Positions 1,923-64,000 of a DNA stretch of 64,000 nt are shown here, one piece after another. Made by a program: the position numbers and the translations under genes. The first letter of the stretch is position 1. Every line of letters begins with the position of its first letter. Under the pieces are notes generated by a model. It had not been told where the DNA came from. It did no database searches and was given only the letters and a program-made list of their open reading frames with translations. Origin of the DNA: Halalkalicoccus jeotgali B3 (GTDB lineage: Archaea > Halobacteriota > Halobacteria > Halobacteriales > Halalkalicoccaceae); the NCBI RefSeq assembly GCF_000196895.1, contig NC_014299.1:186001-250000 (forward strand), in the 5' to 3' direction.

Positions 1923-2390
1923 ATGAGCAGAGACACAGTCATCAGCGTCTACGTATCAGAATCAGAGAAGAATCACCTCAAGAGCGAGGCCAACGATGCA
2001 GGAGAAACACTCTCCAGCTATGTCTACAAGCTCATGCAGGCCGAGCGCCAACGCCAGAATCTGGATCAATCGGCTACAGAGCTATCCGCCGAGGAACGCA
2101 TCGAGGCCTTGATCGCTGAAGGGACAGATGCCCTCGAGGAAATCGCCGAAGACATACGAGACATGAACGCTCGTGCCGGGACCTACTCAGTCGCGAACTT
2201 CGAGCTGCTGAAACAGAACTACCCGGATGCTCGTCGACGTGAGGTACTTCAGACGGGTGCTCGCCGGCTTCGCTACCCGCTTGAGGAACATACTGATCTC
2301 TCGAGTGAGGAGTCGAACAGTGCCGACTCAGACGCTGAAACCGACGATAAAGACGATGATGGACCGACGGAAGTCGATGACCTCCTATGA
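1923..2390 (+). CDS. MobC-like ribbon-helix-helix mobilization accessory protein, 155 aa
   Basis: The N-terminus (residues 4-40) has the pattern of plasmid MobC/RHH proteins. A beta strand (VISVYVSESEKN) is followed by a helix, a turn with GETLSSYV and a second helix. Such proteins bind oriT DNA and assist the relaxase. The middle is helical and the C-terminus a low-complexity acidic tail typical of haloarchaea. The gene follows the repeat-rich 1683-1897 region, and its stop overlaps the relaxase start (ATGA at 2387-2390), so the two are co-translated. A broken second copy on the minus strand at 18221-18499 retains the first two thirds but has ATA instead of ATG. Assignment rests on the fold pattern and gene order. 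Confidence 0.7.
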   Translation: MSRDTVISVYVSESEKNHLKSEANDAGETLSSYVYKLMQAERQRQNLDQSATELSAEERIEALIAEGTDALEEIAEDIRDMNARAGTYSVANFELLKQNYPDARRREVLQTGARRLRYPLEEHTDLSSEESNSADSDAETDDKDDDGPTEVDDLL

Positions 2391-2908
2391 CGACGTTTCT
2401 CCAGACGGAGTATCGTGATTCTGGCGCAGGGAAACTCATGGCATACATCGGCAGAGAGGGAGATACACCGGTTCACGACAGAGCCGGCCGCCTCATATCC
2501 AACAAGCAGAAAGAGCGATTCGTCGAAAAGAGCGAACGTCACCAATTCGAGAGACACATGATAATCAGCCCAGAGAACGGAAATGACCTCTCAAACGATG
2601 AGATCGGCAAAGAGACGCGCCGAACAATGGAACAGTTCACGAAAAACCGACCCACGGTGACCTACGCGTATAGTGTTCATCGGGATACTGAACACCCGCA
2701 CGCTCACGTTGCCATGACGGGTGAGAAGACGGACCTCTACATGGATCGTGGTGACGTCGAGAATGTCCGAGAGACGGCCAATGAGCGGATGGTCGAACGA
2801 GAGAGGTACAAACACCGCCGACAGGAGAAAGAGCGTGCGAACGAACGTGATTCGCGAGAGCGGGAGCAAGAACTAGAGGACGAATTAGAGATTGAGAGGG
2901 GCCGCTAA
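2387..2908 (+). CDS. Relaxase / mobilization nuclease-like protein, 173 aa
   Basis: The central part matches the relaxase core. ERHMIISPENG is the first strand, then comes a helix, then VHRDTEHPHAHVAMTG carries the metal-binding HxH signature of MOBP/MOBQ-type relaxases. Candidate nucleophilic tyrosines lie near the N-terminus (TEYRD and LMAYIGREG). The C-terminal 50 residues are a charged Arg/Glu helix. Relaxases nick oriT, stay covalently attached to the strand, and are handed to a coupling protein. This one is short but keeps the core. It overlaps mobC by ATGA, and its stop lies one base before the coupling-protein start, giving an order as in bacterial mobilizable elements. Which tyrosine acts cannot be told from sequence alone. 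Confidence 0.75.
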   Translation: MTTFLQTEYRDSGAGKLMAYIGREGDTPVHDRAGRLISNKQKERFVEKSERHQFERHMIISPENGNDLSNDEIGKETRRTMEQFTKNRPTVTYAYSVHRDTEHPHAHVAMTGEKTDLYMDRGDVENVRETANERMVERERYKHRRQEKERANERDSREREQELEDELEIERGR

Positions 2909-2909
2909 G

Positions 2910-4504
2910 ATGGTGCTTGGAACCCTCCTCAATCTGACGGCGGTAGCCGCCATGTTAGCCTACGTAAGCAAAGTTAAAGGATTCTCCCCTGTCGGTCCCT
3001 ACGATGCATGGCGGGTGATTACGGCCCCGCTACGCGACGTCAATAGAGCACTCACACCCCTAGCAGCCATCATCGGGTGGTTCGTGGCCCTTTGGTTGGC
3101 TGACGTAACCGGCGCGATATGGCTTACTGTCGCCCTGTTCTTCGGTATCGGTGGGGCATTGCTCTATGAGACGATTCGAGTTGGAATACCCACGGCTATC
3201 GGCGCGACTATCGGCCTTGTATCGGGTCTAACGAGCGACGTTAGGCCCGATCGGGATAACTTCTCACTCCCATTGACTATCTACGAATCGCAGGCTGACG
3301 ACGTGAGCGAGTGGACAGACGGCGCTATGCACGTTCCACGTCGTTCGTTGCTGACTCTTGGAGCGAGTGGAGCCGGCAAGAGTGAGACACTAAAGCACTT
3401 CGTCGATCAGCTCCAGGCCGACCCGAGTGAGCCTGTGGTAGTGTTCGACATGAAGCGAGATTACCAAGCATTCCTCAAGGAACGCGGTGCGTCCATGATC
3501 CGCCTCTCATCCCAGGGTTCGAGCACAGAGATAGGGTCACCGATCGCGTGGAACATCTTCGCGGAAATGGAAACTGAGGCTGACGCCGACGAGATTGCAA
3601 GGTCACTGTTTCCAAAGGGACGCGACCAGAACAATTTCTTCGATACGGCAGGCCGCCAGCTATTTGCCGCGAACCTGAAGTACCTGAAACGTGAGCTCGA
3701 CAATCCGACGAACGCCGACCTCGTGCGCTACTGGCAACGCGCCAGTCCTAAGAAAATGCACGAGAACCTTAGCAGAGACGGCCACGAGGACCTAACGGCA
3801 GCTGCGAGTGCGATTGACCCGGAGACGGCCAAACAGCCGGGGGAGTGTTCTCAAGCGCCCAGCAACAAGTTCAAGACCTCTTTGTGGGTGACTTCGCGAA
3901 GTCCGGCGACTTCTCGATTCGTGAGTACATGGCGAATCCGCAAGGCCGTATTCTCGTACTCGACTACCCGACGCGCCAGAGCGAGACGATCGCGCCCGTG
4001 TTCCGCTACCTGATAGATGAATCCATCAAACACGGGATGTCTGACCCGCGTCGGTCGGCGTACTACCTACTCGACGAGATAGAGCATATGGGCGTGTCTA
4101 TCAGCCGACTCGGAGAGCTGATAAACGTCGGCCGGGGGAACAACTGTCAGGCGATACTCTCCCTACAGAGTGTCGCGCAGCTCCAGGACACGTACGGCCG
4201 CGAGAGAGCGAACGCGCTACTCTCGGGGATGGTTACGGTAATCGGCCTTCGGACGGCCGACGAACCGTCAGTGGACTTCCTACGGGAAACGGTCGGTACG
4301 GAGTTCAACGAGTACACCGGCCACGTTGAGCGGAAAGAAGCGCCGTTAGGTGGCGGTATGGTTGAGACGTCGCGAGAAATGAAAACTGAGGAAGAACACA
4401 AGTTCGCGAAGGGCGACCTTCGGAGCTTCGACGCGGGGGAGGCGGTAATTTGTCGACAGGGTAAAGGCTACGTCCATGGCCGGATTCGTATGCTTGAGGA
4501 GTAG
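2910..4504 (+). pseudogene. VirD4/TraG-type coupling ATPase with one frameshift
   Basis: Restored, this is a 531-residue type IV coupling protein. Three to four N-terminal membrane segments come first, then Walker A (GASGAGKSETLK, about residue 150), then Walker B (YYLLDEIEHMG) in the second half, and a C-terminal domain. Such ATPases recruit the relaxase-DNA complex and pump DNA. The first frame (ATG 2910) runs out at 4013. The second frame takes over at 3845. The break is a run of five G at 3839-3843, and one more G restores AKQPGGVFSSAQQQ. A homopolymer error in the assembly, a true mutation or programmed slippage are all possible. The TTG at 2892 is less likely as start than ATG 2910. A fragment of a second copy lies at 18051-18220. 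Confidence 0.75.
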
Positions 4505-4870: not shown

Positions 4871-5255
4871 CCACAACAGCGCCCCAATGCACCGAACGCT
4901 GACCGTTCGTGTCGCCTCGCCGAGCAACGCCTTCGAGAAGGTTGGCGAGCGTTTCGAGGCGCTCGACCGAGGCGAAGATATTGATCCGCTTTACGAGATC
5001 ACGTTTCAGCGAGAGGAGGATTTACAGCGGCTTCTCTCGGCAAATAACATTCAGATGCTCCGATCAATTGCCCGCGAGTCGCCTGAGAGCATTCGAGCAC
5101 TTGCCCGTGGAGTTGGGCGTGATATCCGGCAGGTTCACGACAACCTCCAAGAACTCGAAAGTTACGGACTCGTCGAGATCGAGGACGAGGGGCGTTCACG
5201 GCGGCCCTCAGTTTGGTATGATGATATCGAGATCAAGGTACCTATCGCTCCGTGA
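4854..5255 (+). CDS. HVO_A0114-family winged-helix antitoxin (TumA type), 133 aa
   Basis: After an N-terminal strand (LTVRVASPSN) and a helical linker comes a winged HTH at about residues 60-115 (ESIRALARGVGRDIRQVHDN, then a short wing). The C-terminal strand ends in IEIKVPIAP, as in haloarchaeal HVO_A0114 proteins. This is the putative DNA-binding partner that neutralises TumE and represses the operon. The frame overlaps the toxin by 17 bases, and ATG 4887 (MHRTLTV) is an alternative start. The toxin-first order is the same in the second copy at 17030-17479. Confidence 0.75.
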   Translation: MNAPTNHNSAPMHRTLTVRVASPSNAFEKVGERFEALDRGEDIDPLYEITFQREEDLQRLLSANNIQMLRSIARESPESIRALARGVGRDIRQVHDNLQELESYGLVEIEDEGRSRRPSVWYDDIEIKVPIAP

Positions 5256-5283
5256 TCTGCGGACCCATTTTGGTGCTACTGTG

Positions 5284-5356
5284 GGGTTGCACGTACAGAA
5301 AACCCGATCCCGACTTTTGCACAATATCCGAGTGTCTTGATATGCAAAATCAGACT
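5284..5356. repeat. TTGCACA hairpin element, copy 1 (mate at 8942-9017)
   Basis: About 73 bp similar to 8942-9017. GGTTGCACG leads to a near-palindrome, TTTTGCACA...TATGCAAAA. It abuts the truncated end of the TrkA-like gene, as if it were an IS terminus or MITE that cut the gene off. No transposase accompanies it. Confidence 0.55.
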
Positions 5357-5809
5357 CTTAGTCTGTTGGTTTTGCGTGTAATCTTGGATGGTAAGATCCG
5401 TTGTACGGTCAAGTGCCCATTCAATAACTGGCGTCAATGCTCGATTCAATAGTTGGCTACGAGCGAGAAGAATAATCCCGATAACGCCACCGATAACGTA
5501 GATGAGAGTAAGAATGTTTTCGCCCTCGGCGTTGGTGAACGACAGAAGGAGCGACCCAAGCATACTCACAATCCCGATGCTTCCGAGTCGGATGAGCCAG
5601 ATGACAATGGTTCGTCTGCTTGGGTCTGAGACCGTAAACTCTGCTTCTTCGGTCGTGTACCCCGCTCCCGAAAATGCTGATGCTGCCTGAAATGAGGCCA
5701 CGTCCGGTGAGATACCAGTCATTCGGAGTGCAATCGCTCCGATCCGGGTCACGAGTAGTACGAGGGCAAAGATGATGAAAACGGACAGGATTTGATTTGT
5801 CGCTACCAT
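5352..5809 (-). pseudogene. Truncated TrkA/RCK-type membrane protein
   Basis: From ATG 5809 (MVATNQIL) the product shows membrane segments and the motif SAFSGAGYTTEEAEF, as in haloarchaeal TrkA-associated membrane proteins. Two more hydrophobic segments follow, then a polar segment (LTPVIEWALDRTTDLTIQDY) where the cytosolic RCK/TrkA-C domain should begin. That domain is missing. The frame instead runs through the 5284-5356 repeat to a stop at 5276. The gene was probably cut by the repeat-bearing element. Family identity is moderately certain, the truncation more so. Confidence 0.55.
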
Positions 5810-5999
5810 GAGATGGTGTTCTACAGCGAACTGTAAAAATACGCAGTCCCCATTCAACGGGATCGCTATCTTAGCAGACTCTACTCACCGACCACCGTAC
5901 TCTGAATTCGTGTTGATACCCTCTCATCACCCATGCTTTGTTGTACAACCAGCTGCCCATCTTCCAACCGGAAACTCAGTAAAATCAGTGACGCGGATC

Positions 6000-6278
6000 T
6001 CAATCGTCGGCAGTATATGCACCACCACGATGTTTGATCCGGGCGACGATCATGTCCGTGTTCGAATGGTCAAAGGTCGTTGACAGCCGAAAACCGCCAA
6101 CTCTGACCTTCTTATAAGGACTGTTCTGCATCGGCTCTCCATACTCCGGCGGGTCTCGCCATGGCGACTCGCAAATCTCATCGAGCTTCTTGCGGATTTG
6201 CTGCTGGTCATCGCGTTCGAGCTTTTCGAAATCGTCGCGCGCCTGTGACGTGAATCGCCACGTCCACTCATCGCTCAT
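6000..6278 (-). CDS. RelE/ParE-family toxin, 92 aa
   Basis: Small basic-acidic RelE-fold protein. WRFTSQARDDFEKLERDDQQ forms the N-terminal strand and helix, and KKVRVGGFRLSTTFDHS...MIVARIKHRGGAY gives the beta sheet and a C-terminal HRGGAY tail typical of RelE relatives that cleave ribosome-bound mRNA. It starts six bases after the stop of the RHH antitoxin, so the two form one operon with the antitoxin first. Confidence 0.8.
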   Translation of the reverse strand: MSDEWTWRFTSQARDDFEKLERDDQQQIRKKLDEICESPWRDPPEYGEPMQNSPYKKVRVGGFRLSTTFDHSNTDMIVARIKHRGGAYTADD

Positions 6279-6284
6279 TCGAGT

Positions 6285-6587
6285 CTACTCCTCTTCGGAG
6301 CTTTCGGTGGTATCGAGATCGAACTCGTCGATGATCTCCTCACGAGAATAAGTCTCGCCGTCCCGGATCTCGCGTTCGGCGCGGGCGAGTGCGGACAACT
6401 CGTCACGGTCGAACGTAGGGTTTTCGACTGAATCACGGAGCACGTGCCGAATGTACTCTGAACGGGAATTGAATCCCCGTCCTTGCCACACATCGTCGAT
6501 CTGTTCAAGGAACGTCGGGGTGACACGGACGTTGATTTGCGGACGCTCATCACCATCACTGGGTTTAGTTGGCGATGCGTCTGACAT
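6285..6587 (-). CDS. Ribbon-helix-helix antitoxin, 100 aa
   Basis: Residues 17-52 form an RHH DNA-binding domain (INVRVTPTFLEQIDDVWQGR...NSRSEYIRHVLRD). The acidic C-terminus (EREIRDGETYSREEIIDEF) is the likely toxin-neutralising segment. It lies immediately upstream of the RelE-like toxin and, as is usual for type II systems, probably represses its own promoter in the 6588-6700 region. Confidence 0.8.
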   Translation of the reverse strand: MSDASPTKPSDGDERPQINVRVTPTFLEQIDDVWQGRGFNSRSEYIRHVLRDSVENPTFDRDELSALARAEREIRDGETYSREEIIDEFDLDTTESSEEE

Positions 6588-7099: not shown

Positions 7100-8245
7100 A
7101 TGCAAGCACTCCGCTGGCACGACGAGGGCGACGTCCGGGTCGACGACGTCCCGAAGCCGGAGATCAAGGAGCCGACCGACGCGATCGTCGAGATCACGGC
7201 GACGGCGATCTGTGGCTCGGACCTCCATCTCTACAACGACTTCATGCCGGGCATGGAGGAGGGCGACATCCTCGGTCACGAGCCGATGGGCGAAGTCGTT
7301 GAGGTCGGCGAGGAGGTCGACGACCTCCGGGAGGGCGACCGCGTCGTCATCCCCTTCACGATCAGCTGTGGCGAGTGCTGGTTCTGCGAGAACGATCTGT
7401 ACTCGCTGTGTGACGAGACGAACCCGAACGCCGAGATGGCCGCCGAGACGATGGGCCACTCGCCAGCCGGTCTGTTCGGCTTCTCGCACACCCTTGGCGG
7501 GTACGACGGCGGGCAGGCCGAGTACCTGCGGGTACCCCACGCCGACGTCGGCCCGATCAAGATCGAGTCGGACCTCTCGGACGAGGAGGTACTGTTCCTC
7601 TCCGATATCTACCCGACGGGGTATATGGCCGCCGAGAACGCCGAGATCGAGGAGAACGACACGGTCGCCGTCTGGGGCTGCGGCCCGGTCGGCCAGTTCG
7701 CCATCCAGAGCGCCTGGATGATGGGCGCCGACCGCGTGATCGCAATCGACCGGATCGAGGAACGCCTTGGGATGGCCGAGGGTCACGCCGACACCGAGGT
7801 GATCGACTACTCCGAGGACGACGTCTACGAGTGGCTGATGGACGAGACCGACGGCCGAGGGCCCGACCGGTGTATCGACGCCGTCGGCTCGGAGGCCCAT
7901 CACACCTGCGTCGATCACGTCCCCGACGAGCCCGACCGTCCCTACGTGCTCCAGGAGGCGATCAAGTCCTGTCGCAAGGGCGGAACCCTCTCGATCCCAG
8001 GCGTCTACATCGACGGAGTGGACGACATGCCGATGGGCCCGCTGATGAACAAAGCTCTCACGGTCAACGCGGGCCAGACCCACGTTCAAGCCTACCTGAA
8101 CCCGCTGCTCGAGACGATCGAGAACGGCGAAATCGATCCCGCGGAAATCATCACCCACCGGGGCTCGCTCGAGGACGGGCCCGAACTCTACGAAACGTTC
8201 AACGACAAGGAGGACGACTGCATTAAAGTCGTCCTAGAGCCGTAA
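7100..8245 (+). CDS. Zinc-dependent alcohol/formaldehyde dehydrogenase-like, 381 aa
   Basis: Medium-chain dehydrogenase. The GroES-like catalytic domain carries [11 protein letters not shown] and GHEPMGEV (catalytic zinc ligands). A structural zinc site has four Cys ([15 protein letters not shown]), followed by the Rossmann domain with [15 protein letters not shown] for NAD(P). The overall pattern resembles the glutathione-independent formaldehyde dehydrogenase-like subgroup of MDR enzymes common in haloarchaea. The substrate cannot be fixed. ATG 7100 ([12 protein letters not shown]) is the family start, although the frame is open from 6812. Third positions are strongly GC-rich compared with the flanking genes, which suggests a different history. 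It stands alone. Confidence 0.9.
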
Positions 8246-34202: not shown

Positions 34203-35831
34203 ATGGATCCTAATCTGGATCGATTTTCCTCTCGCCGTTCAACCGTCTACGGAAAGCGCGGTGTTGTTTCGACGAGCCAACCCCTCGCAGCAGAAGCAGG
34301 AATCGCAATCATGCGTGACGGTGGCAATGCCTTTGACGCAGCGGTCGCGACCGCTGCAGCACTCAACGTTGTCGAACCAACCTCGACTGGATTAGGTGGC
34401 GACGTGTTCGCACTCTACCGAACTGCCGATGGTGATGTCGGTGCGATGCGTGCCTGTGGCGGCGCTCCTGCTGGCGCGACGATCGAGGCCGTTCGCGAGG
34501 CAGTCGCCGACGATGATTCCTCGGAGGTTGCGGATCCTGCGAGCGTCGAGATGCCTGAAACGGGTGCGCACGCGGTGACTGTCCCTGGGACTGCCCGTGG
34601 TTGGGAGGCCACTGCGGATCGCTTCGGGACTTTCGATCTCGGTCGATTGCTCCAGCCCGCAATCCGGTACGCAACGGACGGGTATCCAGTCTCGGAGGTT
34701 GTCTCGGCTCAATGGCAACACGGAGAGGACCTGTTCAAGACTGACCACGCTCGCGAGGCGTTCCTCTTCGATGGTTCCGCCCCGGAAACCGGTCAGCACG
34801 TTACGCTCCCGAAACTCGGCGCATCACTGGAGTTGATCGCTGAGGAGGGTGCCGACGTCGTTTATGACGGCGAAATAGCTGAGGCAATTGCGACAGAAGT
34901 TCAAAAAGAAGGTGGCTTCTTGACCGTCGACGATCTCGCCGCCTTTGAAGTCGAGTGGCCAGAACCCGTCTCAACGACGTACAACGATGCGGAGGTATTC
35001 GAACTCCCGCCGAATAATCAGGGGCTGATCGCCTTAGAAGCGCTCAACATTGCCGAGGAGCTTGGTGCAGGCGAGTACGATCGAAACTCCCCGGAGCGAA
35101 TCCATGCCCTCGTCGAGGCAATGAAACTCGCATTCCATGACGGACATCACTATATCACGGATCCCGAGTACGCCGACCATCCCCCGCTCGGGTCGAAAGA
35201 CTGGGCCAGACGTCGCGCTCAGTCCGTCGGTGAGACCACAAACAATGACGTTTCGGTTGGAGTCCCGAATGCCAACGCAGAGGACGCTGATACAGTCCTG
35301 CTGACCGTTGCTGACGACGAAGGCAACGTGGTTTCATACATCAACTCGCGGTTCGCCGGCTTCGGGTCGGGGGTCGTCGCCGGCGAGACGGGGATCGCAC
35401 TACAGAACCGTGGGTCGTCGTTTTCGCTTGATAAGAACCATCCCAATAGCCTCGAACCAGGCAAGCGTCCGTTTCACACGCTTATTCCCGGTCTCGTCCA
35501 GTTTGGAGAAGACGACTGGGCCGGTTTTGGTGTGATGGGTGGGTACATGCAGCCACAAGGCCACGTCCAGCTGATCAGCAATATTGTCGATTATGGCATG
35601 CCCCTACAACGTGCCTTAGACGAGCCCCGGTGGCGCTACCGAGAGGACGGCCAACTTGCAGTTGAGCCGCATTTCGACACCAGCGTGGTTGCGAAGCTCG
35701 TACGGAAAGAGCACGACATCTGTATCCTTTCATCCGGTATGTTCGGCGGCGCCCAGATCGCCCGTAACGAGCAAGGCGTCCTTTCGGGTGCGACCGAGCC
35801 GCGCAAGGATGGGAACGCTCAGGGCTACTGA
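34203..35831 (+). CDS. ggt: Gamma-glutamyltransferase family protein, 542 aa
   Basis: The full-length Ntn hydrolase has STSQPLAAEAGIAIMRDGGN, the family N-terminal region, and the autoprocessing Thr364 in DADTVLLTVADDEGN, which becomes the catalytic residue of the small subunit. Gly-rich FAGFGSGVVAGETGI follows. It transfers or hydrolyses gamma-glutamyl groups from small thiols, peptides or gamma-glutamyl amines. No signal peptide is seen, so action is probably cytosolic. Upstream in-frame codons to 33993 are non-homologous, and ATG 34203 (MDPNLDRFSSRR) is the family start. It opens the catabolic island. Confidence 0.9.
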   Translation: MDPNLDRFSSRRSTVYGKRGVVSTSQPLAAEAGIAIMRDGGNAFDAAVATAAALNVVEPTSTGLGGDVFALYRTADGDVGAMRACGGAPAGATIEAVREAVADDDSSEVADPASVEMPETGAHAVTVPGTARGWEATADRFGTFDLGRLLQPAIRYATDGYPVSEVVSAQWQHGEDLFKTDHAREAFLFDGSAPETGQHVTLPKLGASLELIAEEGADVVYDGEIAEAIATEVQKEGGFLTVDDLAAFEVEWPEPVSTTYNDAEVFELPPNNQGLIALEALNIAEELGAGEYDRNSPERIHALVEAMKLAFHDGHHYITDPEYADHPPLGSKDWARRRAQSVGETTNNDVSVGVPNANAEDADTVLLTVADDEGNVVSYINSRFAGFGSGVVAGETGIALQNRGSSFSLDKNHPNSLEPGKRPFHTLIPGLVQFGEDDWAGFGVMGGYMQPQGHVQLISNIVDYGMPLQRALDEPRWRYREDGQLAVEPHFDTSVVAKLVRKEHDICILSSGMFGGAQIARNEQGVLSGATEPRKDGNAQGY

Positions 35832-61884: not shown

Positions 61885-62091
61885 TCAAGATCTCGGGTCT
61901 TCGGCGAGTTCGTATAATCCTTCATACAGCTTACGTACGTTTCCGTGCTCAACTAATCGACCGAGCCGATCCCGAACATATTGGAGGCTATATCCAGTTT
62001 CATCGGCTGCATACGGTGCAGTGACTCGACCCTCACTTAGCATATCGAGTAGCGCCTCATCCGCCGGCCCTAAATCATCATCGCTGAGCAT
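61885..62091 (-). CDS. Small winged-helix regulator, 68 aa
   Basis: Almost the whole protein is one winged helix: DEALLDMLSEGRVTAPYAAD, ETGYSLQYVRDRLGRLVEHG and a short wing (VRKLYEGLYEL). No sensor domain is present. It may act on the promoter of the zinc-protein operon starting at 62282, which diverges from it by 190 bp. Confidence 0.7.
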   Translation of the reverse strand: MLSDDDLGPADEALLDMLSEGRVTAPYAADETGYSLQYVRDRLGRLVEHGNVRKLYEGLYELAEDPRS

Positions 62092-62163: not shown

Positions 62164-62210
62164 CCCATAGACCCTAAGGGTTAAGTAAGCATGATTCGTA
62201 GACACAACTG

Positions 62211-62269
62211 AGCACGGGATGCCTCAGAAATCTCTGAGGCCGGTGGTGATGACACCGACCTCTCGTGCT
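62211..62269 (+). ncRNA. Candidate three-way-junction RNA in a 5' leader, 59 nt
   Basis: AGCACGGGA (62211-62219) pairs with TCTCGTGCT (62261-62269) over 9 bp with one G-U. Within it two hairpins abut: GCCTCAGA-AATC-TCTGAGGC (62221-62240, 8 bp perfect) and CGGTG-GTGATGA-CACCG (62241-62257). The fold ends 12 bases before ATG 62282, so it could control translation of the zinc-protein operon as a riboswitch-like leader or protein-binding site. The loop GUGAUGA equals a C-box consensus, and CTGA occurs in hairpin 1, but the order does not make a standard C/D RNA. Confidence 0.5.
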
Positions 62270-62281
62270 GGATAACCAGCA

Positions 62282-62488
62282 ATGAGCACTAGCAACTCAA
62301 CAGCAGAAAACAGTATCGCCTCCGAACAACCAAACCGAATCACCGGTCCCCACCACGAACCCCCGACAGTCGCCAACGCCACTACCTACTGGCGCTGCGA
62401 GGCCTGCAATCGCGAATCCATCCGCGAGCAGGATCTCCACCGCGAGACCTTCCACGCCGCCGAGTGTGAGGTGGCCGAGCGATGCTGA
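62282..62488 (+). CDS. Small C2H2-type zinc protein, 68 aa
   Basis: The last third carries WRCEACNRESIREQDLHRET then FH, giving C-x2-C-x10-H-x4-H, with two further cysteines at the end. The N-terminus is a polar, disordered-looking tail. The ATG lies 12 bases after the structured leader. It overlaps the next gene by 7 bases. It may bind nucleic acid. Confidence 0.7.
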   Translation: MSTSNSTAENSIASEQPNRITGPHHEPPTVANATTYWRCEACNRESIREQDLHRETFHAAECEVAERC

Positions 62489-63237
62489 CCGAAATCCCCA
62501 CCAACAGTACCCAACTGTTCGCCGGCGCGCGCCTCTCCGACACCAACCCCGAGTGCACCGCCTGCAACCGAGTCCTTAGAGAAGGCGAACAGGTCACGAT
62601 CTACGTCGCTCGCGAAGAAGACGCCCCCACGTTCGCCATCGAACGCTGCTACTGTCGTGAGTGCACCCCCGAGGAACTTACCAGCCCGACACTCGGCCTG
62701 AGCGAACACCTCCTCCAAACCCGGCTCACCCGAACGCTGGACGTTCGCACCCAAAGCGAGTTCCCGACACTCGGCGAAATCATAACACTCGACACAAGCG
62801 CCCCGAGCCAAGGTACTGCCGAAGCCCACAACGAAGACCCTCCGACAGCACTCCTCCGGGACACGCACATCCAGAACCCCGCCAGCGCCGTCTATCACAT
62901 CGACGACGGGGAGGGTCAGCCGCTGTGTAACTGCACTAGCGACGCCCAGTACACGCCCGTTCCACTCGCGGAAGCCGAGGCAAGCACAGCCCGCCAATGC
63001 GGGAACTGCCAGATCGCCCGCGAGGGCGAACAGGCAACCCAGCCCTGTCCCCACTGCAACGTTCAGGTTGGGATGAGCGCGTGGCCCCAACACGTCCGGG
63101 CCTGTACGGGTGATCCCACTGACGCCGCCGAGGAGACTGATCCCGACGGCGACCCTGTAATCACCCAGACCCAGCGCGCCACCAGTCCGGCCACACGCAC
63201 GGGCGCTCGCACACAGCTCCACCAAAGCCAGGAGTAA
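62482..63237 (+). CDS. Multi-cysteine zinc-binding protein, 251 aa
   Basis: Several Cys pairs suggest at least two zinc sites. CTACNRVLREGEQV plus CYCREC near residues 25-62 form a treble-clef-like or ribbon site, CGNC lies at about 176-179, and CPHCNVQVGM then HVRACTG near 192-211 forms a C2HC knuckle. The linker is low-complexity. Family not recognised. The style is typical of plasmid or virus-related haloarchaeal genes. It overlaps the preceding gene, so both are in one operon. Confidence 0.7.
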   Translation: MLTEIPTNSTQLFAGARLSDTNPECTACNRVLREGEQVTIYVAREEDAPTFAIERCYCRECTPEELTSPTLGLSEHLLQTRLTRTLDVRTQSEFPTLGEIITLDTSAPSQGTAEAHNEDPPTALLRDTHIQNPASAVYHIDDGEGQPLCNCTSDAQYTPVPLAEAEASTARQCGNCQIAREGEQATQPCPHCNVQVGMSAWPQHVRACTGDPTDAAEETDPDGDPVITQTQRATSPATRTGARTQLHQSQE

Positions 63238-63413: not shown

Positions 63414-64000
63414 ATGACTGAACCCACAACGAGTACCGAGAGCACCGCCACCGACCAGCCTGCGACGACCGAGGAACCAACGCTCGAGTCCATCTCCGAA
63501 CAACTCGAAGCGCTCACCAATCGGGTCGAAGAACTCGAGGCCGAACTTAATCGCAAAGACGACCGGATTGAGGAGCTGGAAGCGGAGCTCACCGAGTACA
63601 AGCGTTTTGCCGGCTCGGAATTTGCTGACGTTCGCGGCCGGATCACCGACGTCGAAGACCAGATCCAAGAGTTAGAAACAACGCTCCAGGAGACGCCCAC
63701 GGAGACCACCACCGTTGCCGCCGAGGAGACTGGCTCCCAGACCACGACTACGGAGACACCGTTAGAACGCATCTGTACGCTTCCCGAGCACGTCGCCAAT
63801 CGCGAGCTCACGACCAATCAAAAACGTGCTCGCTTCATCGCACAGGACGTACAGGATTACGCCGAGAAGGCACCTGCTGGGCTCGTGCTCGATAGTCAGA
63901 CGATCGCGAAGGTCATCACTGCCGCCGAAGGGTCGAAGCCTCACACCCAAACTGTGGCCCGTGTCATGAACTTCCTCGAGAAGCTGGGGAAAGACGACGT
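63414..64000 (+). CDS. Coiled-coil protein, 5' part (runs off the window)
   Basis: An open frame from ATG 63414 continues past the edge for at least 195 codons. After a Thr-rich start come heptad-type residues (SISEQLEALTNRVEELEAEL to DRIEELEAELTEYKRF and VEDQIQELETTLQE), a Thr-rich linker, then a globular part (CTLPEHVANRELTTNQKRAR, then KVITAAEGSKPHTQTVARVM). Layout is coiled coil plus helical, HTH-like region. It suggests a DNA-organising or regulatory protein of a mobile element. Function not assigned. Confidence 0.7.
   Translation, partial: MTEPTTSTESTATDQPATTEEPTLESISEQLEALTNRVEELEAELNRKDDRIEELEAELTEYKRFAGSEFADVRGRITDVEDQIQELETTLQETPTETTTVAAEETGSQTTTTETPLERICTLPEHVANRELTTNQKRARFIAQDVQDYAEKAPAGLVLDSQTIAKVITAAEGSKPHTQTVARVMNFLEKLGKDD

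Follow-up and report, generated by a model that had tools for sequence, protein, structure and literature searches.

A three-way-junction leader RNA of haloarchaeal mobile elements, with a conserved opposite-strand promoter in the first gene and a proposed sense/antisense switch

In a 64,000-nucleotide stretch of the Halalkalicoccus jeotgali B3 genome (NC_014299.1, positions 186,001 to 250,000; the window), a short, strongly folding sequence lies immediately before a gene for a small protein. What is this element, and what would it control? An earlier note, made from the sequence alone, had proposed a compact three-way-junction RNA at 62211-62269 on the plus strand, with stems of 9, 8 and 5 bp. 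These stems are present exactly as proposed: P1 (9 bp, 62211-62219/62261-62269), P2 (8 bp, 62221-62228/62233-62240), and P3 (5 bp, 62241-62245/62253-62257). The junction ends 12 nt 5' of ATG 62282, as the note had counted. The claim that such order is unlikely by chance is borne out, since the minimum free energy of the 59-nt junction is -33.2 kcal/mol, compared with -17.1 +/- 2.9 for 200 dinucleotide shuffles (z -5.63; 0/200). The junction is a real folded RNA and a member of a leader family that had not been catalogued before.

Some other readings of the fold were rejected. The P3 loop motif GUGAUGA had been likened to a C box; it sits in a hairpin loop that varies in relatives (CUGGAA, UUGGAG, UUCCAG, and others), and no D box was seen, so identity as a C/D box RNA was dropped. 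Kissing between the P2 and P3 loops inside the leader RNA lacks covariation, and codons 10-14 pair with the P1/P2 joint no better than after permutation. Pairing of the P3 loop with an element in the downstream coding sequence gave a hint in the first set of leaders and was lost in a new set.

Rfam gave no credible match at gathering or loose thresholds, and its curated threshold was not reached. A covariance model of the junction alone, built from 8 leaders (R1), found many further leaders, and a refined model (R2) was built from 74 leaders with the window copy left out. R2 has a single match in the window, at 62209-62271 (E 0.00094). Matches occur in 207 of 394 Halobacteriales genomes and in 68 of 95 genera, and thus in about half of the sampled genomes; in a phylum-wide genome sample, every genome among the matches listed belongs to the Halobacteriales. 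Family members lie nearly always directly 5' of a start codon. They are found in the Halorubrum viruses BJ1, Humcor1 and Antarctic HRTV-DL1, in IMG/VR contigs, and in Haladaptatus megaplasmids. The phage copies were located by protein search plus R2; blastn of one leader against a phage collection returned no match. Two viral pattern matches (L101, L102) were discarded because each seems to be a chance hairpin resembling P3, with no leader attached. Within the genus, paralogues of the 68-aa protein encoded after the window leader are preceded by near-identical leaders, while diverged ones stand before unrelated genes in other families. Halalkalicoccus paucihalophilus has close relatives of the 68-aa gene.

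Covarying homologues, which the earlier note had proposed as a check on the fold, were found in two alignments. In the alignment of 74 sequences, 94.4% of cells pair, both partners have changed in 18 of the 21 pairs, and no shuffle (0/500) and no slid version reaches the real alignment in any of the five measures. A second alignment of 67 matches consists mostly of leaders unused before (it includes four matches set aside elsewhere, three of which are opposite-strand copies); here 92.7% of cells pair, and compensatory change is again seen in 18 of 21 pairs. Both alignments were fitted to the model, replacing MAFFT alignments that misplaced P1, and hence lean towards it. What counts is therefore the size of the excess of double-change cells, 173 and 208 in the two alignments compared with 39 and 55 after shuffling. 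G-U cells far outnumber A-C cells in P1 (72:12) and P2 (58:2), which marks the sense RNA as the strand whose folding is under selection. In P3, G-U is wholly absent, as if folding were needed on both strands; the A-C cells counted there probably stem from the ambiguous outermost pair of P3.

Where would the mRNA begin? The TATA-like box suggested upstream of the fold proved real (TTAAGT, 62181-62186). It forms part of a predicted sense core promoter at 62172-62188 (plus strand), which is supported by the family logo and a matrix score of 7.7. Relatives carry A at -36/-35, a TATA box at -32 to -28, T-3, and R-2 upstream of the fold. Because the distance from TATA/BRE to the fold is fixed across the family, the 5' end of the mRNA is expected at the fold, 1 or 2 nt ahead of P1. 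With the family promoter matrix, the window start is predicted at approximately 62210, and its score is in the top 0.09% of plus-strand positions. A start downstream of 62269, the outcome that the earlier note had named as counting against it, is not indicated. Judged by this predicted start, the mRNA is leadered and the window RNA, which has covarying homologues, is its structured 5' end. An operator-like near-palindrome, ACCCTAAGGGT (62171-62181), overlaps the BRE, and palindromes occur at the equivalent upstream place in many relatives, including BJ1.

The predicted mRNA opens an operon. Its first gene (62282-62488, plus strand) encodes a 68-aa CxxC small protein with no Pfam or PHROG match. 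The second (62482-63237) encodes a 251-aa Cys-rich protein with no Pfam match, and the third (63414-64000), a coiled-coil protein, runs past the end of the window. On the minus strand, a divergent gene (61885-62091) encodes a 68-aa winged-helix regulator (phrog_38164, E 1.1e-29; phrog_2440, 'transcriptional regulator', E 1.9e-7), and related divergent regulators occur at 53 of 88 leaders. The first genes of the family encode SWIM zinc fingers, zinc ribbons, small Cys-rich proteins, phage integrases, HNH nucleases, and a RAMP-like protein. The fold had been proposed to control translation of the downstream zinc protein, perhaps autogenously. The leader does probably control expression of the downstream operon; zinc-specific or autogenous control is not supported, given how many unrelated genes stand behind the same leader.

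Several observations concern the surrounding genes. A second family of small divergent regulators (MAKTRALLT...ERE...; phrog_26393, unknown function, no Pfam family) occurs, for example, at loci L023, L031, and L106. The RAMP-superfamily-like gene follows its leader at 1516-2403 of L066 (Pfam E 0.0059) and possibly represents a CRISPR-type system on a mobile element. In Haladaptatus relatives, a 23-aa ORF (MTSNTLSVEKRIDYQPP...) lies directly after the leader and before the annotated gene (L063, 1549-1617; L074, 1496-1564); it lacks annotation in L107. The annotation of ORF7 of the BJ1 virus (L103, 1124-1215) begins at a GTG that lies within the leader; the family pattern places the start of ORF7 at the ATG after GACAGC, at approximately 1213. 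Downstream of the window (L176), translations read as a TnpB-like ORF (5199-6417) and as a further copy of the third operon protein's C-terminus (7326-7652); given these, the window operon may belong to a decayed element. Elsewhere in the window (1923-4504), translated ORFs look similar to a relaxase and a VirD4-type coupling protein; a frameshift seems to divide the coupling-protein ORF.

Unrelated mobile-element proteins encoded after these leaders share similar first 13 residues, which is explained if these codons also encode a promoter on the opposite strand. Among 49 leaders, picked so that the proteins differ, AARANNNTNYCG stands at positions +26 to +37, and third codon positions are among the most conserved. 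This coding element is locked to the AUG (74% match in register, at most 42% elsewhere), and new leaders repeat it (72% match in register). On the opposite strand it reads as BRE plus TATA. A weight matrix trained solely on sense promoters and then scanned over the minus strand has a sharp peak at ATG-1, with a mean of 0.69 against -8.5 +/- 1.7 at 210 offsets; real genes score 1.36 at this site and codon-shuffled genes -4.6. The score is above zero in 108 of 147 leaders (and at or below zero in the other 39), compared with 4 of 169 ordinary gene starts taken as a control from the loci bearing the leaders. In the window, nucleotide-level conservation and these matrix tests place the element, GCGATACTGTTTTCTGC, at 62303-62319 on the minus strand (codons 8-13), and the antisense start is predicted at 62281 (ATG-1), a local matrix maximum of 2.0. 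This score is moderate, in the top 3% of minus-strand positions. Like the fold, the position of the mRNA start, and the pairing before the AUG described below, the opposite-strand promoter and its position were demonstrated by computation.

The antisense TATA is flanked by inverted repeats (coding positions 16-27 with 31-40) that covary across 98 nonredundant starts (z ~5, 0/300). In leaders such as L066, L128, and L162 these could be an operator palindrome or an RNA hairpin; the window copy shows no clear pairing of this kind. Palindromes here and upstream of the fold, together with the mobility of the carriers, would suit a DNA-level element such as a recombination or packaging site or an operator array, whose inverted repeats merely resemble RNA stems. 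We regard this as very improbable: the excess of G-U over A-C in P1 and P2 points to folding of a sense RNA, and the position of the element is fixed relative to both promoter and start codon.

The bases before the AUG offer a second pairing. Beyond almost every R2 match, at a distance of 10-20 nt, the sequence of the P1 5' strand recurs and the AUG comes next, so that the P1 3' strand can pair with either copy; the pre-AUG copy was not part of the covariance models. In the window the alternative hairpin, P4 (62267-62280, plus strand), pairs GCUGG (62267-62271) with CCAGC (62276-62280) and shares GCU with P1. Leaders that depart from GAAGC/GCUUC keep P4 by matching changes (5.65 bp, 3.92 permuted, 0/500), as do new leaders (4.63 bp, 3.63 permuted, 0/300), in tests that remove kinship among leaders only in part. 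P1 and P4 are mutually exclusive, covarying pairings; conservation of an unpaired core is weak. When the P1 5' strand is blocked, the unpaired probability before the AUG falls from 0.43 to 0.11, and the two states are near energy balance (median 3.2 kcal/mol). Shine-Dalgarno-like cores are enriched in the linkers (30/80 compared with 11), with the window copy lacking one.

All of this could be expected of a translational riboswitch or protein-sensing switch, in which the junction is the aptamer or protein site, the P1 3' strand moves to P4 to hide the start codon in the unbound state, and no antisense RNA takes part; P4 and the energy balance would be expected in that case too. However, the opposite-strand promoter and the loop sequence discussed below are left unexplained, the junction has few free bases, P3 is kept mainly as a helix, and the downstream genes share no pathway. 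P4 mismatches are also more often A-C (14) than G-U (3), small numbers that fit the antisense strand better and hint at an antisense RNA as the user of P4. On balance we consider a riboswitch unlikely.

The reading that we prefer starts from the P3 loop. A U-turn (YUNR), typical of antisense recognition loops, is found in 76 of 137 leaders compared with 23.6 by shuffling. A common variant of the loop, UUCCAG, is the reverse complement of CUGGAA and nearly that of the commonest form. These features, together with the precedent of the antisense RNA T(ant) of phage phiH, lead us to read the leader as a sense/antisense switch, and it is likely that the window copy is the leader of a mobile element's first operon under this phiH-type control. 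The predicted mRNA of this early operon is leadered and begins at a structured leader, the first gene holds an antisense promoter with its start at ATG-1 (moderate in the window), and a regulator gene diverges (the winged-helix gene at 61885-62091; 53/88 leaders).

In the proposed switch, the sense promoter would start the mRNA at the foot of the three-way junction and leave the pre-AUG bases free. The opposite-strand promoter in codons 8-13 of the first gene would start an antisense RNA at ATG-1 that copies the whole leader, and first contact would probably be made by kissing at the P3 loop. Pairing would then block translation or, as reported for phiH T1, open the leader to attack by a host RNase, with loss of the start region. 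We infer antisense transcription in this genome, and its effect, from these sequence features. Read further, the transcript from 62281 would reach the divergent regulator gene and, because the divergent gene is often a small regulator, could double as its mRNA. More tentatively, and as one possibility, we suggest a switch, general in archaea, that sets mobile elements to dormant or active, in which a single convergent promoter makes both leader antisense and regulator mRNA, and the RNAs fold into matching junctions that meet via the P3 loop.

A simpler account would make the junction a mere 5'-end stabiliser or translation enhancer and let the convergent promoter act by transcription interference, not by RNA pairing. 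A start at the first base of P1 and conservation of the convergent promoters themselves would be consistent with it. We find it quite improbable, since it predicts neither the covarying P4 nor the YUNR loop, and T(ant) of phiH acts through RNA (PMC4284463).

Antisense control of an early viral leader has phiH as its precedent. What the present analysis adds is its spread, a conserved fold, an antisense promoter that the family shares within coding sequence, and a connection with divergent regulators; open-access full-text searches found no description of the family. Structured leaders have been judged untypical of haloarchaea, and 72% of Haloferax protein-coding transcripts are leaderless (PMC4983044). 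The class of folded leaders described here is present in about half of the Halobacteriales genomes sampled. A single observation made in one virus in 1993 becomes a widespread, testable control system, and the leader becomes a marker for the first operons of haloarchaeal viruses and plasmids.

Among known systems, purine-type translational riboswitches such as add of Vibrio also combine a three-way junction with a P1 3' strand that can switch to hide the start site, whereas the leader has no purine-type junction core or Rfam match and carries an antisense promoter. CopA/CopT of R1 and hok/sok likewise use overlapping sense and antisense RNAs and hairpin loops with the YUNR U-turn; unlike the leader family, they are bacterial, have other folds, and control copy number or toxins. 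The lambda promoter P_RE lies within an opposing early gene and reads antisense and on towards the repressor gene, a read-through that in the archaeal case we infer.

The closest likeness is to phiH, whose early lytic transcript T1 is controlled by T(ant) (Stolt and Zillig, 1993, PMID 7683366; MK002701). According to a review of this work, T(ant) spans the T1 leader; once the two have paired, a host RNase can attack T1 and take off its ribosome-binding site (PMC4284463). T1 too is the early operon of a haloarchaeal mobile element with a divergent gene (imm). Its leader starts in P1 (GAGCAGG/CCUGCUC) and has a GAGC copy directly 5' of the AUG, with the Shine-Dalgarno sequence GGAGG between P1 and this copy; the antisense start is at ATG-1, and the coding element is at the equivalent place. 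Unlike the family, it has a 151-nt leader with a larger inner fold that is not an R2 match, and it is known from one virus, with no family described. With transcript starts as annotated in MK002701, the promoter matrix, for which no phiH data were used, peaks exactly at the T(ant) start (38732, ATG-1) and at T1. For T4 the peak is one base upstream of the start, and for the T4 gene the matrix predicts an antisense start, again at ATG-1. The annotated T5 start (L175, 34722) has a background-like score and may be a processed T4 end near the start codon. T4, which diverges from repR, is annotated to start at 34556, the first base of P1 of a family-like three-way junction that is the best R2 match in its region, a weak one (E 0.0097). 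This leader differs from the family in its 16-bp P1, its 174-nt length, and a second structured stretch before the gene, and resembles it in its P3 loop (CUGGUAU), its coding element, and its predicted antisense promoter.
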